Shown: one piece after another, positions 8,277-27,183 of the stretch
How the letters are laid out: every line of letters begins with the position of its first letter
Position numbering within the stretch: position 1 is the stretch's first letter
Virus record (IMG/VR): IMGVR_UViG_3300046691_000298
Coordinates: 1-27,183 of that record
DNA: 27,183 nt
Direction: 5' to 3' (one strand)
DNA from: a virus
Made by a program: the position numbers and the translations under genes
The notes under the pieces: generated by a model
The model's input: only the letters and a program-made list of their open reading frames with translations
Told to the model about the DNA's origin: nothing
Database searches by the model: none

Positions 8277-8645
8277 TCAAGACTCAATGCTTTGAATAAG
8301 CTTTCGGGCTTTTTCCCGCTCCCCGTGATCAGCCCAACCAGTTGAATTGGCCCTTTCATCGACAATTCTGAGCAAATCTCGAAGTGCATCTTCAAGTTCT
8401 TGAGCGATCCAAACAGCTCCCTGGCTGATATCGATCACTCTTCCGCCCCAAGACTTGCCCTCTTCCTTATCCCGATCGCGGGCCATGGCTTCGCCGTAGT
8501 TCTTGGCGTAAGTGGCGCGCATTTCGGATCTGGCTTTTTTCTCGGCAGCCTTCTCATTCTCCGCTTTCACGACGGCGCCGAACTCACCTTGAGAAAGGTC
8601 GTTATCCTGCCATGCGAGGAGGATTGAATAGGTTTTGAGGGCCAT
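8277..8645 (-). CDS. Hypothetical protein, 122 aa, first gene of the small-gene cassette
   Basis: A charged, largely helical protein of unknown function. An N-terminal beta pair ('KTYSILLAWQDND', 'FGAVVKAENEKAAE') is followed by an Ala/Glu/Lys/Arg-rich helix near 28-60 and a second helix at the C terminus. The ATG at 8645 has a good ribosome binding site (AGGAA, eight bases upstream), the best in the cassette, in line with it being the lead gene. Its first 79 bases overlap the 3' end of the helix-turn-helix gene in another frame. Confidence 0.75.
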   Translation of the reverse strand: MALKTYSILLAWQDNDLSQGEFGAVVKAENEKAAEKKARSEMRATYAKNYGEAMARDRDKEEGKSWGGRVIDISQGAVWIAQELEDALRDLLRIVDERANSTGWADHGEREKARKLIQSIES

Positions 8646-18547: not shown

Positions 18548-19534
18548 TTAGTCGGAGACGTATTCGCCGGCCAGGGTCTTTCGGAACTGGATCCAGCCGG
18601 GACCGAGGTTGCCGGCGAGCTGCGGGCTCTCCCACTCATGATCGTTTCCGATCCAATCACCCTCGTCAGAATAGATGGTGCGATTGAGAAGTTTGTCCGG
18701 CGTAGCCTGATGCTCAGCGGGTGAAGCGTGCAGCGGGCTGGAGCCAACGAGCATCTCGTAGCGCTCCAGCTCCTTCTCGATTGAGCCGTCGCCGTCGAAG
18801 GGCTTGTAGGAGATGCGAGCGCAGCGGGCGACCGAGAGCTTCTTGTAGGATTCCTGATACTCCTCCGGAGCCGGAGGTCGACCCAGACTGGAATGTAGAA
18901 ACTCGCGGATCGGGTCGGTGTCGTTGTAGTCGACATAGGGCAGATGCCACTGTCCCGGCTCCAACGTCTGAAGTTCGGCGCCGGCGATCGCCTCCTTCAC
19001 CAGCACAGCCAGGTCGTGGAAGTGTGGCTCAGCCATGTCGTGATCGCGCAGATGAAAGAAGTTCGCCCAGCTCGTCGAGGTGATCAACGTGTCGATCCAG
19101 GAGAACGGCTCGATCAGGCGATTGACGATCTGCTTGTGATAGCCGGCATTTGCAAATGCCTGTGCAGCCATCACCGCGTTATCTCGGGCAATCAACCAAG
19201 CTGAACTTCGCGTTTGCTCGGTGAACTGATTATGCCCCCACCCAAAAGAATCGATCTCTTCGTTATGATCCTCTCCGGCCTGCATGCCCTTCTGATTCTT
19301 GCCCCAGTGCCAGGGCACGAATGGCGTCTCTCGAATTTCCTTGAGCATTGTCGCCACAGGCACTGCGCGCGAGCTTCTGGCATTCCGGCTGAAGACCCGA
19401 TGGGTCATAATCTCGCCGTGAATGATCCGCGGGGAGCGCGCATGGATCGTGATGATCGGCGGGGCGCCATTGGTTGGCTTGCTGGCCAGAACCACCTTGG
19501 CGAACATCTGATCTTTCGGGGAGTAGGAGCTCAC
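18548..19534 (-). CDS. thyX: Flavin-dependent thymidylate synthase ThyX
   Basis: Makes dTMP from dUMP using methylene-tetrahydrofolate, NADPH and FAD. The ThyX signature is present as 'THRVFSRNARSSR' (44-56), a form of RHR-x-x-S-x-N-x-x-S-x-R with Thr in place of the first Arg; phage members of the long subgroup often have this. Other fitting features are the early 'ITIHARSPRIIHGEIMTHR' and a His-rich middle ('NFFHLRDHDMAEPHFHDL'). At 328 residues it is longer than typical bacterial ThyX (about 220-250), also usual for phages. It overlaps the upstream 102-aa gene as ATGA and lies near dCMP deaminase, which supplies dUMP. Confidence 0.9.
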   Translation of the reverse strand: MSSYSPKDQMFAKVVLASKPTNGAPPIITIHARSPRIIHGEIMTHRVFSRNARSSRAVPVATMLKEIRETPFVPWHWGKNQKGMQAGEDHNEEIDSFGWGHNQFTEQTRSSAWLIARDNAVMAAQAFANAGYHKQIVNRLIEPFSWIDTLITSTSWANFFHLRDHDMAEPHFHDLAVLVKEAIAGAELQTLEPGQWHLPYVDYNDTDPIREFLHSSLGRPPAPEEYQESYKKLSVARCARISYKPFDGDGSIEKELERYEMLVGSSPLHASPAEHQATPDKLLNRTIYSDEGDWIGNDHEWESPQLAGNLGPGWIQFRKTLAGEYVSD

Positions 19535-20298: not shown

Positions 20299-20763
20299 CT
20301 ATGTTGGCGTTTCCTGCCCGGGCGCGGGGGCAAGTTGGCTGGGAAGTTCAACGCACTCGATCCGCGCTTCACGAAAAAGGGTTTGACCGAGTTTGCACGA
20401 ATCCGCGAAACGGGGATTACCGTTCGGCGGCGAAACCACCCGCATGATCCCCGTCTGGATGATCATGGCCGCACAGCGCGAGCAGGGTGGAAGAGGCCAG
20501 GTATAAAGCGTGCAGCCGAGGAGCGGTTCCCGGGCTGCCAGAATGGCGTTCATTTCACCATGGACGATCGCTTCATATTTGAAATCCCGGCTCTCATAGC
20601 GAGAGGCATCATCTTCGACACCCCGAGAAAACCCATTGTAGCCGATGCTGACGATCGTGCGATCTGGTCTGACGATCACAGCGCCGAGCTTCGTCGACGG
20701 ATCTTTGCTCCAGCCGGCAAAATGCTTGGCTGTTTCCAGAAAGCGATAATCCCACTTCGACAT
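20299..20763 (-). CDS. Deoxycytidylate (dCMP) deaminase
   Basis: Converts dCMP to dUMP, the substrate of ThyX. The zinc-binding cytidine deaminase signature is complete: 'HGEMNAIL' (His68, Glu70 as proton shuttle) and 'PPCSRCAAMI' (Cys94, Cys97). The N-terminal 'TAKHFAGWSKDPSTKLGAVI' is typical of dCMP deaminases. The 154-residue length agrees with T4-type and bacterial enzymes. The ATG at 20763 has AAGG seven bases upstream. It reads away from the plus-strand phosphoesterase gene, and the shared 135-base gap carries a perfect palindrome. Confidence 0.92.
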   Translation of the reverse strand: MSKWDYRFLETAKHFAGWSKDPSTKLGAVIVRPDRTIVSIGYNGFSRGVEDDASRYESRDFKYEAIVHGEMNAILAAREPLLGCTLYTWPLPPCSRCAAMIIQTGIMRVVSPPNGNPRFADSCKLGQTLFREARIECVELPSQLAPAPGQETPT

Positions 20764-22694: not shown

Positions 22695-23882
22695 TCATTC
22701 GCGAATGTGAATGAGCTTACCCTGGTTCACCTGGGCGCCGCTGTTGTTGATGGCGACCCAAAGGATCGGAACATTGAGATCGCTGGGAAGCTTCTCCATG
22801 GCGTTGCACTGCAAGTCGGAGAAGATCACCACAGCGGTCGGCTTGTGCTCGATGATGTAATCCCGCACGGGAACCAGGGATGTTCCGCCGCGGCCGACGA
22901 TGACGACTTCCTCGAATGGATCATCGCGATCGTAATGGGTCTCCTTGGTGATCCTGGTGTCAAACTGGACCAGGGACATCTTCAGAGGTTTGAAGGTGTC
23001 CCAGACGTATTTGACCTCGGAATTGAAGCGCACCACCTCGTCGTCGGTGACCGATCCTGAGACATCCTCGAAATAGACGATGTGCTCAAGGCCGCCTTCA
23101 TCCTCGAACATCGAGGGCAGGTACATGCTCGTGGAGCGCCGGCTGGGCCGTCTCCAGGAATAGTCCTGCTCGGTGAGTTGGGTGAAGAACTGGGCATGGA
23201 GCTGCTTCCAGGGCAGCTTGGGCTTGAGGAAGCGCCTGAGTGTGGTCTCGACATCTCCGGGGATATCCCCGGCCTGGGCGCCGGCGAGCTTGGCAGCATG
23301 GGTAGCTGACACGACGCCGTTGATCATGGCATGGGGATTGATGCCCTCGTCTATGAGATCTGGACGGTAGCCGAGGGGGACCTGGATCGCATCAGCGATC
23401 ATCTTGTCATAGATCTCCTCGGCCGAAAGACCATCCCAGTCATGGTTGACGAAGGTATGTGTGGTTTCCCCAAAGAGCTCTCTCGGAAATACCGCTTCGC
23501 CTGAGACGGGATAGCCCTCGTGATCCATCTCGTTGTCGAGGACGGTGTCGACGGCGTAGTTCCAAATCTCCGGATCCCTTGTGCCTCTCCTCAAAGGGTG
23601 GAGATAGGCGACATGACGGAGCTCGTGCATCAGGATCGATTTGCGGCCTTCTTTCGAAAGAAAGTGGAAGTAATAAGGGTTCCACTTAATGAACGTTCCA
23701 TTGGTTCCCGCCGTCGGCAAAGACTTGTCCCATTCGAAGTTAAGGGAACACATCAGGGAGCCAAAGAAAGCTGCCGACTTGCCAAGGAAGACTTGCGTCT
23801 TCACCCGGTCAAGTTCGCGATCGAGGCGCCGGTAATCCAGTTCAGGCAGCTCGTCTGGCTTCAGCATCGGTGTCCTCGTCAT
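22695..23882 (-). CDS. Zincin metallopeptidase-like / VWA domain protein (DUF2201 type)
   Basis: A 395-residue two-domain cytoplasmic protein. The N-terminal domain (about 20-160) has a zincin HExxH motif, His86-Glu-Leu-Arg-His90 in 'ILMHELRHVAYLH', with a helical 'WNYAVDTVLDNEMD' after it. The C-terminal domain (about 262-395) is VWA-like with a MIDAS sequence Asp273-Val-Ser-Gly-Ser277 ('YFEDVSGSV') and 'VVIFSDLQ'. This matches the VWA-like/DUF2201 family, usually encoded next to a MoxR AAA+ ATPase, as here. It overlaps the upstream ATPase gene by 41 bases. The pair may remodel or cleave a protein target in the host or virion; the target is unknown. Confidence 0.85.
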   Translation of the reverse strand: MTRTPMLKPDELPELDYRRLDRELDRVKTQVFLGKSAAFFGSLMCSLNFEWDKSLPTAGTNGTFIKWNPYYFHFLSKEGRKSILMHELRHVAYLHPLRRGTRDPEIWNYAVDTVLDNEMDHEGYPVSGEAVFPRELFGETTHTFVNHDWDGLSAEEIYDKMIADAIQVPLGYRPDLIDEGINPHAMINGVVSATHAAKLAGAQAGDIPGDVETTLRRFLKPKLPWKQLHAQFFTQLTEQDYSWRRPSRRSTSMYLPSMFEDEGGLEHIVYFEDVSGSVTDDEVVRFNSEVKYVWDTFKPLKMSLVQFDTRITKETHYDRDDPFEEVVIVGRGGTSLVPVRDYIIEHKPTAVVIFSDLQCNAMEKLPSDLNVPILWVAINNSGAQVNQGKLIHIRE

Positions 23883-24978
23883 CGTGGAGATACTTGGAGA
23901 GTTCCAGCAAGGCTTTGCGGAACATGGGGTGCTTGCGAAGCTCGGGCTGTTGAACCAGGAGGCCCCGGAAGAACAGCACTCGCAGCTCGGAGGTCCACCG
24001 GTTCACGAAGATCGTGATCGGCTCGAAGTTGCCCTTCTTGGTGAGCTTACCTTCCTTGTCATGGGTGTCATCCGTGACCTGACTGATCAGCATCGAGACT
24101 GTGGCAAAGCGAGTTGCCGGATCGGTCGGAACAGGAACGCCTTCAGGATCCTGGATGATCTCCTTCAGGCTCGGCAGTTCGTTGAACACCTTGGTGAAGG
24201 TGATGAACTCAACGGCTGTGCCGGATGTGATCGTGCCGGCGTAGAGCGCCGCCTTGTCCTCGGTGACCTCGTTGCCCGAGATCAACTTGTTCATGAACTC
24301 CCAGGTGCGTGGGCACGAGAAGGTGTGCCCATCGTGGTCGGGCTGGAAGTCATGTAGGGCGCCCTGCTTGTAGCTGAGATATGCGATGATCCGCGGATCC
24401 CAATGGTTCTTGAAGGCGACATCCTGCATGAACTGCTCATGGTCGAGCCGCATGATCAGGTGAACCAAGCGAGACTGCATCGCCGTTGACAGCGAGTTGA
24501 CGATGGCTCGATCGCCCTCGAGATTGCCGGCGCAGACGATCGCAACATTGGGATGCAGCTTGTCCTGGCCAACCATCTTGTCGAGGATGATCTTGTACAT
24601 GGCCGCCTGGACCATTTTGGTTCCCGAGTTGAACTCGTCGAGGAACAGGAGCCAACCATTGAAGCCGGCCGGGATCGGTGTGCTCTCGACCGGAAACGTC
24701 TCGAAGGGCACGAACTCGGAGATCGAACGCAGCACATTGCCTGCGTCGTCGGTGATATCCCGAAAGCGGGGCAGCCCCTGGGCGTCTTCCGGCGTGGCCT
24801 GAGAGAGACGAACGTCGATGACCTTGAGGCCGAATTCCCTGGCGATCGCGTTGATGATGGCGCTCTTGCCCATGCCGGGCGAAGACCGGACGAAAGGCAC
24901 CAGGCCAGCCTTGATGCAATCGATGACATATTCCCGGATCTGCCGGGGGGTACAGGTATAGGCGGACAAGTCGGCCAT
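23842..24978 (-). CDS. MoxR-type AAA+ ATPase
   Basis: A 378-residue AAA_5/MoxR ATPase, probably a hexameric chaperone. Walker A is 'SPGMGKS' (33-39), Walker B 'LLFLDEFN' (110-117), and sensor 1 appears as 'VAIVCAGNLEGDRA'. The arginine-finger and sensor 2 regions follow ('AMQSRLVHL', 'CPRTWEFMNKLISG'). MoxR proteins act with VWA-domain partners as in RavA-ViaA and NorQ-NorD. The partner gene follows directly with a 41-base overlap. The start ATG (24978) has AGGA about ten bases upstream, behind a CCCCAGATA spacer. Confidence 0.9.
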   Translation of the reverse strand: MADLSAYTCTPRQIREYVIDCIKAGLVPFVRSSPGMGKSAIINAIAREFGLKVIDVRLSQATPEDAQGLPRFRDITDDAGNVLRSISEFVPFETFPVESTPIPAGFNGWLLFLDEFNSGTKMVQAAMYKIILDKMVGQDKLHPNVAIVCAGNLEGDRAIVNSLSTAMQSRLVHLIMRLDHEQFMQDVAFKNHWDPRIIAYLSYKQGALHDFQPDHDGHTFSCPRTWEFMNKLISGNEVTEDKAALYAGTITSGTAVEFITFTKVFNELPSLKEIIQDPEGVPVPTDPATRFATVSMLISQVTDDTHDKEGKLTKKGNFEPITIFVNRWTSELRVLFFRGLLVQQPELRKHPMFRKALLELSKYLHDDEDTDAEARRAA

Positions 24979-25013: not shown

Positions 25014-25235
25014 TTAGCGGTTGTGACGGGGGTGGGTCAGCGCAGCCAAGAGCATCTCGGAAGCGATCGCCTTATTGAGGTGCTGTGAGCGGCAGGCGCC
25101 GTATTGGGCCATGGCTCCAGACGGAAGATGGGTGATCCGGATCGTGGTGGGAACCGTACCGGCGTGCTGACCTCCTGGACCAGGTGGTCGCAGGACCTCG
25201 AGCTTGAAATCATCGTGAGGGAGAAGCTCGATCAT
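25014..25235 (-). CDS. Stand-alone GGQ (RF-1) domain protein
   Basis: A 73-residue protein made of little more than the catalytic domain of class I release factors. 'RPPGPGGQHAGTV' puts the GGQ at residues 21-23, and 'TIRITHLPSGAMAQ' and 'CRSQHLNKAIASEML' (RSQ-x-x-NKA) complete the RF-1 domain signature. In full release factors and ArfB the GGQ loop enters the peptidyl transferase centre and hydrolyses peptidyl-tRNA. Here codon-recognition domains and the ArfB basic tail are missing. It could rescue stalled ribosomes, release peptidyl-tRNA or interfere with termination. It overlaps the 73-aa gene upstream (ATGA), which may encode a partner subunit. Confidence 0.8.
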   Translation of the reverse strand: MIELLPHDDFKLEVLRPPGPGGQHAGTVPTTIRITHLPSGAMAQYGACRSQHLNKAIASEMLLAALTHPRHNR

Positions 25236-25453
25236 GGGCCTGTTCCAATTTCTTTGAACCAGGCCTCGATATGGGGGATCACCTCTTTGATTTCGTCGAC
25301 GTGATCCAGGTCTGAGGAATATGAGCAGAGATCGATGGCGATCTGCTCCAAAGAGAGATTGCGGAGATTACCGCCGGGCTCGAAAGCGGTGTTCAGCTTC
25401 GCGTTGTTGAGGCTCTCAAAAACGAGCGCCTTCAGATCAGGAGCTTTGGGCAT
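25232..25453 (-). CDS. Hypothetical protein, 73 aa, coupled to the GGQ gene
   Basis: A small acidic helical protein without a recognised family ('LKALVFESLNNAKLN', 'LDHVDEIKEVIPHIEAWFKE'). It has no membrane segment. Its stop overlaps the start of the GGQ gene (ATGA), so the two are made in equal amounts, and a physical partnership is possible. It is first in the transcript that continues into the GGQ, MoxR and VWA genes, after the strong terminator at 25516-25542. Confidence 0.65.
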   Translation of the reverse strand: MPKAPDLKALVFESLNNAKLNTAFEPGGNLRNLSLEQIAIDLCSYSSDLDHVDEIKEVIPHIEAWFKEIGTGP

Positions 25454-25515: not shown

Positions 25516-25542
25516 AGCCCCCCGATTAAAAACCGGAGGGCT
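25516..25542 (-). terminator. Strong Rho-independent terminator after the Ig-domain gene
   Basis: A nine-position stem with one mismatch (25516-25524 with 25534-25542), followed on the minus strand by six T residues. It lies 26 bases past the stop of the Ig-domain gene and isolates it from the next transcript. Confidence 0.85.
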
Positions 25543-26679: not shown

Positions 26680-27183
26680 TCAGGAGAGCGCGTAGTTGGT
26701 GGACCGCACGTCCCGAGCCAAAGTGGGATCGAGCTTGGCGACCTGGACCGGCCGATGCACGATCTGCGAGACCAGGAAGCTGAGCATCTCGGATTCGGCG
26801 ATCTCGGCCAGGAGATTGTTGTATTGCTGCCGCAGATCGTTGCCATAGTTGGGCAGGCACCTGAAGCAGTCATGGACCGAGATTACGTCGAAGGGCTTGC
26901 GGGGCAGGCTGTTCAGCATTCGGACGATAGCGTCACGATCGACGAGACCGAAGTTCTCCTCGTCGAGATAGTCGAGGATCCGGGCTGAGAGAAAGCCCGA
27001 TTCCAGATAGCGGCCCCATAGGATCAGGACCATATCGTCCTTGGCTCGATGGGTGTTCTTGGTCTTGACGCAGCGCCGGATGAGGTTCTCCAGACGCTCG
27101 ATCATGGCCAGGTCGAAGGAGCAGCGACGGGCCATCTCCCGAACGATCATGCCGTCAATGGAATGAACGACATTGGCTCCCAG
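26680..27183 (-). CDS. T7-type single-subunit RNA polymerase, C-terminal part (cut by window edge)
   Basis: The open frame enters from beyond the right edge; 167 residues are visible. They align with the end of T7 RNA polymerase. 'ANVVHSIDGMIVREM' corresponds to T7 'PNFVHSQDGSHLRKT'. 'VHDCFRCLPNYGNDL' is motif C (T7 'IHDSFGTIPADAANL', with the catalytic Asp). The chain ends in 'NYALS', like the T7 C-terminal foot 'DFAFA'. Between HSxDG and VHD there are about 92 residues against 22 in T7, so there is an insertion of roughly 70. The internal Met at 27150 is not the start. The enzyme would transcribe phage genes from its own promoters, which were not identified here. Confidence 0.8.
   Translation of the reverse strand: MGANVVHSIDGMIVREMARRCSFDLAMIERLENLIRRCVKTKNTHRAKDDMVLILWGRYLESGFLSARILDYLDEENFGLVDRDAIVRMLNSLPRKPFDVISVHDCFRCLPNYGNDLRQQYNNLLAEIAESEMLSFLVSQIVHRPVQVAKLDPTLARDVRSTNYALS

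Follow-up and report, generated by a model that had tools for sequence, protein, structure and literature searches.

A tail-less GGQ protein family of phages, reduced to release-factor domain 3 and possibly acting as a peptidyl-tRNA hydrolase

A stretch of viral DNA of 27,183 bases (virus record G000, hereafter the window), read here from its gene content as part of an N4-like phage genome, encodes a 73-residue protein that covers release-factor (RF) domain 3 alone. The protein is a member of the RF-1 domain superfamily and is not ArfB, PrfH or RF1/RF2. Its family, previously uncharacterised, consists of tail-less GGQ proteins from phages and prophages whose hosts are rhizobia-like bacteria. 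No family of smaller, naturally selected GGQ proteins was found; in this one the motif is frozen and every known ribosome-docking element is missing. The favoured reading, to which we give roughly even credence, is that of a phage-borne peptidyl-ester (peptidyl-tRNA) hydrolase reduced to this one domain. The family offers a clean test of the abilities of a lone GGQ domain and of how phages handle stalled ribosomes. The original prediction had described such a domain together with an acidic partner; the stand-alone, tail-less GGQ domain in a phage has held up, with GGQ under purifying selection in its clade, and the partner is unsupported.

Sequence, predicted fold and known counterparts

The gene lies at positions 25014–25235 on the minus strand, and its assignment draws on Pfam, PHROG, a structural model and a clade of 27 relatives. 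Its product is MIELLPHDDFKLEVLRPPGPGGQHAGTVPTTIRITHLPSGAMAQYGACRSQHLNKAIASEMLLAALTHPRHNR. Read directly from the sequence, the GGQ motif (residues 21–23) is encoded at 25167–25175 and RSQHLNK (residues 49–55) at 25071–25091, both on the minus strand, with RSQHLNKA spanning residues 49–56. Pfam RF-1 (PF00472) matches the protein with 54 bits (E 1.9e-14, cut-off 35), which rules out a chance ORF, and the match stops at model position 71 of 116. The possibility that the ORF is a pseudogene or the remnant of a longer factor was likewise rejected: the ATG at 25235 is the earliest ATG, GTG or TTG of the frame, and relatives are also 65–78 residues long. The intact GGQ and RSQ-x-x-NKA motifs predicted for a stand-alone domain are thereby located within a protein of clear RF-1 membership.

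Other profile searches point to release factors and stop at the same single domain. Partial matches were obtained to PHROG 20323 (E 2.6e-8) and PHROG 3122 (E 2e-6), a collection that has no curated cut-offs, and the PDB sequence matches were to RF1, RF2 and PrfH (6e-10 to 6e-9). In NCBIfam the nearest models were RF2, PrfH and RF1, with ArfB far off. The prfB match (E 1e-13) covered only model positions 225–288 of 353; PrfH (E 3e-13, positions 105–168 of 200) scored 49.6 bits, below its cut-off of 166.65, and ArfB (E 5e-4) 19.8 bits, below its cut-off of 100. No curated NCBIfam cut-off was approached because a single domain is present. The expected lack of codon-recognition domains and of the ArfB basic tail was confirmed: RF1/RF2 domains 1, 2 and 4 are absent, given the length of 73 residues and the domain-only prfB match, and the chain stops 18 residues past RSQHLNK, leaving no ArfB-type C-terminal tail.

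An AlphaFold2 model of the protein, built from 36 phage sequences, had a mean pLDDT of 84 and a layout of β-strand, GGQ loop, two β-strands and α-helix. Foldseek matched this model to RF2 and RF1 with probability 1.00 and TM scores of 0.6–0.74. VIA-align gave Z scores of 8.0–8.7 for RF1, RF2 and PrfH, the highest (8.7) being RF2 on the ribosome, with 8.5 for the peptidyl-transferase-centre-region chain 6c4h and 7.2 for mtRF-R (7a5h). The predicted fold is that of RF domain 3.

With domain 3 of RF1 and RF2 (Pfam RF-1) the protein shares the fold, GGQ, HxPTG and RSQxxNK, but it stands alone and carries G rather than N at the third position after the motif (GGQ+3). Like ArfB/YaeJ and ICT1, it is a stand-alone GGQ domain with no stop-codon recognition; unlike them, it has neither the basic C-terminal tail that ArfB needs for binding and activity nor the inserted helix, and the domain is RF-like rather than ArfB-like. 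Its GGQ domain resembles that of PrfH (with RtcB), but the anticodon-like domain is lacking (73 residues against a 200-position model), and no RtcB gene was found beside it, the immediate neighbours being an acidic ORF and an N4 gp24-like ATPase gene. The protein mtRF-R (C12orf65), which acts with MTRES1, is also a small, codon-independent GGQ protein and matches in fold, whereas the window protein lacks its C-terminal extension; no MTRES1-like S4-type partner was seen, the adjacent ORF matching nothing in Pfam, PHROG or NCBIfam.

A tail-less clade and its relation to other phage RF-1 proteins

IMG/VR and genome contigs were searched for relatives with the DNA pattern HxPSG-8-RSQxxNK and with profiles, and the resulting counts are lower bounds biased towards the pattern motif. 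At least 162 distinct RF-1 domains were recovered in this way; the window protein as a lone query against IMG/VR gave zero matches. A phylogeny of RF-1-domain-only proteins, as the original prediction had proposed, placed the window protein in a distinct tail-less clade: in a FastTree analysis of 159 domains, this clade held 27 distinct sequences (local support 0.876) and sat inside a wider clade of 57 (support 0.844) whose members are mostly tail-less. Its members come from IMG/VR contigs and Rhizobiales genomes, are mostly ~50% identical to the window protein, and usually end in (I/L)THPxxR. Matches in the genomes of Rhizobium sp. 2MFCol3.1, Aquamicrobium defluvii, Ochrobactrum chromiisoli and other Rhizobiales suggest a rhizobial host range for the clade, from which we infer the window's own host. 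One 75 kb virus contig (L031) carries two different minimal GGQ genes, at 630–845 and 8349–8555.

The GGQ motif is invariant in all 27 distinct clade members. Across the wider clade, the glutamine or the entire motif has been lost repeatedly (14/57), always among the other 30 members. All 36 aligned tail-less proteins match RF-1 at E < 0.01, and their RSQ and N residues are invariant, partly through selection by the search pattern. Between clade pairs dN/dS was mostly 0.04–0.4, and against the window it was 0.2–0.5 where dS could be estimated, many pairs being at or near saturation. As judged from these alignments, GGQ is under purifying selection in the 27-member clade. The GGQ+3 residue is N in 91 of 99 GGQ-bearing domains with longer tails and G, as in the window protein, in 40 of 46 tail-less ones; because this split follows the tree, it is largely one inherited trait rather than many independent events.

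Many phages already have annotated stand-alone RF-1 genes; the kind is therefore known, and the tail-less variant is new. RF-1 matches were found in 335 named phage records, some of them resembling bacterial DNA in poorly cleaned records, and the majority came from Mycobacterium phages whose annotation lists an RF-1 release factor. A search of 50,697 named phage records yielded no convincing clade member; with the clade member L092 as query, all matches there were below 60% identity and resemble ordinary release factors in records without annotation. The phage RF-1 proteins of PHROG 3122 and 20323 (Bixzunavirus, Otagovirus, Lazarusvirus, Septimatrevirus) likewise consist of a phage-encoded RF-1 domain, some with 65–78 residues, but the tree places the window protein in a clade apart from them. 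Those of Bixzunavirus have a longer C-terminal part (118 residues in total), several other stand-alone phage proteins lack GGQ, and the THPxxR ending was found in none of them. The literature search turned up no paper about minimal GGQ proteins of phages, and the word “phage” appears nowhere in the text of Burroughs and Aravind 2019 (PMC6514570).

Among the phage RF-1 proteins that lack GGQ, the motif is replaced by GASAW in PA16c (L014), GARRW in DLP1 (L017), SGLVN in LG08 (L016) and GGM in phiPsa347 (L018); in the proteins of L033/L161 it is TGM. The first four are annotated as peptide chain release factors, an annotation that is doubtful, and the rest of the domain is kept. These repeated losses in sister phage proteins show that the RF-1 fold can persist without GGQ. 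A phage gene may carry the label release factor or peptidyl-tRNA hydrolase and still be devoid of the catalytic motif. Five virus contigs (L043, L051, L080, L095 and L172, one of them 402 kb long) encode a release factor of ~360 residues with GGQ, perhaps linked to stop-codon recoding.

Candidate functions of the lone domain

With GGQ retained, a release-factor fold and selection acting on the domain, its most likely use would be catalysis at the peptidyl-transferase centre, a reading to which we give about even confidence. The protein would place its GGQ in this centre on empty-A-site ribosomes or split 50S subunits during infection and free the nascent chain, and ribosomes and tRNA would thereby be recycled for phage translation. 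Catalysis, the ribosome as target, and docking by means other than an ArfB-like tail are what we infer here; the domain might dock by touching the 50S subunit directly, or with the help of a host factor or of a phage protein encoded elsewhere. Retention of GGQ throughout the clade despite the low identity of most members to the window protein supports the hydrolase. Phages are also known to need peptidyl-tRNA hydrolysis: in the absence of host Pth, lambda minigenes are toxic, and Pth is encoded by many phages (PMC12487901; PMC7824862).

Several observations count against hydrolysis. ArfB without residues 101–140, i.e., the GGQ domain alone, neither binds the ribosome nor hydrolyses (PMC3950681), an analogy that warns about docking by a lone domain. 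The tail-less proteins are near neutral (charge roughly -5 to +2), without the basic tail of ArfB; GGQ has been lost in part of the wider clade; and a G, which might affect catalysis, is conserved at GGQ+3, where canonical factors have N. The tail-less proteins may dock differently, require an extra factor, act on another substrate, or not hydrolyse at all. The stronger proposition that the bare domain actively releases nascent chains with no 30S, mRNA or tail contacts is unlikely. Such release might occur on split 50S-peptidyl-tRNA complexes, for example, or through a host RQC-like factor, and if true it would give phages a minimal enzyme for translation rescue or translation shutdown, contrary to the rule derived from ArfB.

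The inert bare domain of ArfB would also fit a non-hydrolytic role, which we consider unlikely. The protein would bind the A site and peptidyl-transferase centre or other RNA, blocking or marking it, for example to slow host translation, and GGQ would be kept for binding. Consistent with this, HxPTG and RSQxxNK, or close variants of them, are retained in the GGQ-less proteins of PA16c, DLP1, LG08, phiPsa347 and L033/L161, but these motifs belonged to the search pattern, so their retention was partly selected for. The model also scores against dsRNA-binding domains (RNase III, Dicer) at Z ~7, a value that can reflect a common arrangement. Against this role, the window's own clade of 27 shows no GGQ loss.

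Mimicry of RF1/RF2 is distinctly improbable. In RF1 and RF2, GGQ is the motif that is methylated, and PrmC is the methyltransferase. A protein that presents the same motif could serve as a PrmC substrate or decoy, or compete with RF1/RF2, and so alter host termination efficiency; the match of the model to RF1 in its complex with PrmC (2b3t, Foldseek E 9e-4) is in keeping with such a role.

Neighbouring genes and phage context

Upstream of the GGQ gene, an ORF for a 73-residue acidic protein (25232–25453, minus strand) overlaps it by ATGA at 25232–25235, as predicted; its product has a pI of 4.6 and a charge of -6.3. At 0.19 log-units per codon, compared with -0.36 to 0.03 for shadow ORFs, the ORF has the codon usage of a gene and is probably real. 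A single-sequence model was all-helical and of low confidence (pLDDT 61). A scan located an intrinsic-terminator-like hairpin of 12 pairs followed by a T run (25516–25542, minus strand) between the upstream Ig-like gene and the acidic ORF and GGQ gene.

The acidic protein had been proposed to guide the GGQ protein, as MTRES1 does with mtRF-R, and the ATGA coupling and codon usage would suit such a two-component machine. No homologue of it was found among 223 loci, 50,697 phage records and 72,556 plasmid records, nor did it match anything as a lone query against IMG/VR. The upstream neighbours of clade members are unrelated: acidic proteins of 54–60 residues (L028, L044, L050, L052), a basic one of 99 (L026), and others of 116 (L059) and 159 (L092). 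A conserved operon partner was rejected on these grounds, and the guiding role is now very improbable. Because the ORF is homologue-free and upstream genes vary among relatives, the coupling most likely reflects ordinary compact phage operons.

Downstream, a NusG-like gene (Pfam NusG; PHROG 25909 antiterminator) directly follows on the same strand in eight distinct members from Rhizobiales-type phages (L200, L195, L197, L199, L209, L188, L189 and L117), and the same slot in 11 others holds PHROG 21451-like (7), PHROG 15385-like (3) or DUF6362 (1) genes. A link to transcription, in which the GGQ protein would release or clear ribosomes on mRNA followed by a phage antitermination complex, is the least probable reading, as a different gene comes next in the window and in further members of the clade, and the placement can be explained without function by a slot that these genes share where the early region ends.

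In the window, the next gene downstream, after a 35 nt gap, encodes the N4 gp24-like AAA ATPase (23842–24978, minus strand; PHROG 1297, E 3e-118), which is ~46–52% identical to Schitoviridae homologues, N4 gp24 included; its matches include Sinorhizobium phage ort11 and Rhizobium phage RHph_X3_15. An N4 gp25-like metallopeptidase/VWA protein (22695–23882, minus strand; Pfam DUF2201_N/DUF2201), an N4-type RNA polymerase subunit that the end of the window truncates (26680–27183, minus strand; PHROG 2051 RNA polymerase, E 8e-49), and DNA polymerase and primase genes fit the N4-like reading, which the ATPase defines. Vertical inheritance of the GGQ gene as an N4 gene was rejected: an RF-1 domain occurs in none of 15 N4-like records (12 from IMG/VR plus ort11, RHph_X3_15 and N4), several of which are fragments, and the equivalent site in the three named phages holds other small genes. 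Because these 15 records lack it, the gene seems to move between phage types. Searches of the window ATPase and primase against 20 other GGQ-carrier records, run without a positive control, were empty, which hints at horizontal movement. Elsewhere in the window, both on the minus strand, are a dCMP deaminase-like gene (20299–20763; Pfam E 1.5e-18) and a gene for a 328-residue protein (18548–19534) whose match to Thy1 (ThyX) is weak and falls below the cut-off (E 0.021); it is possibly a divergent flavin-dependent thymidylate synthase.
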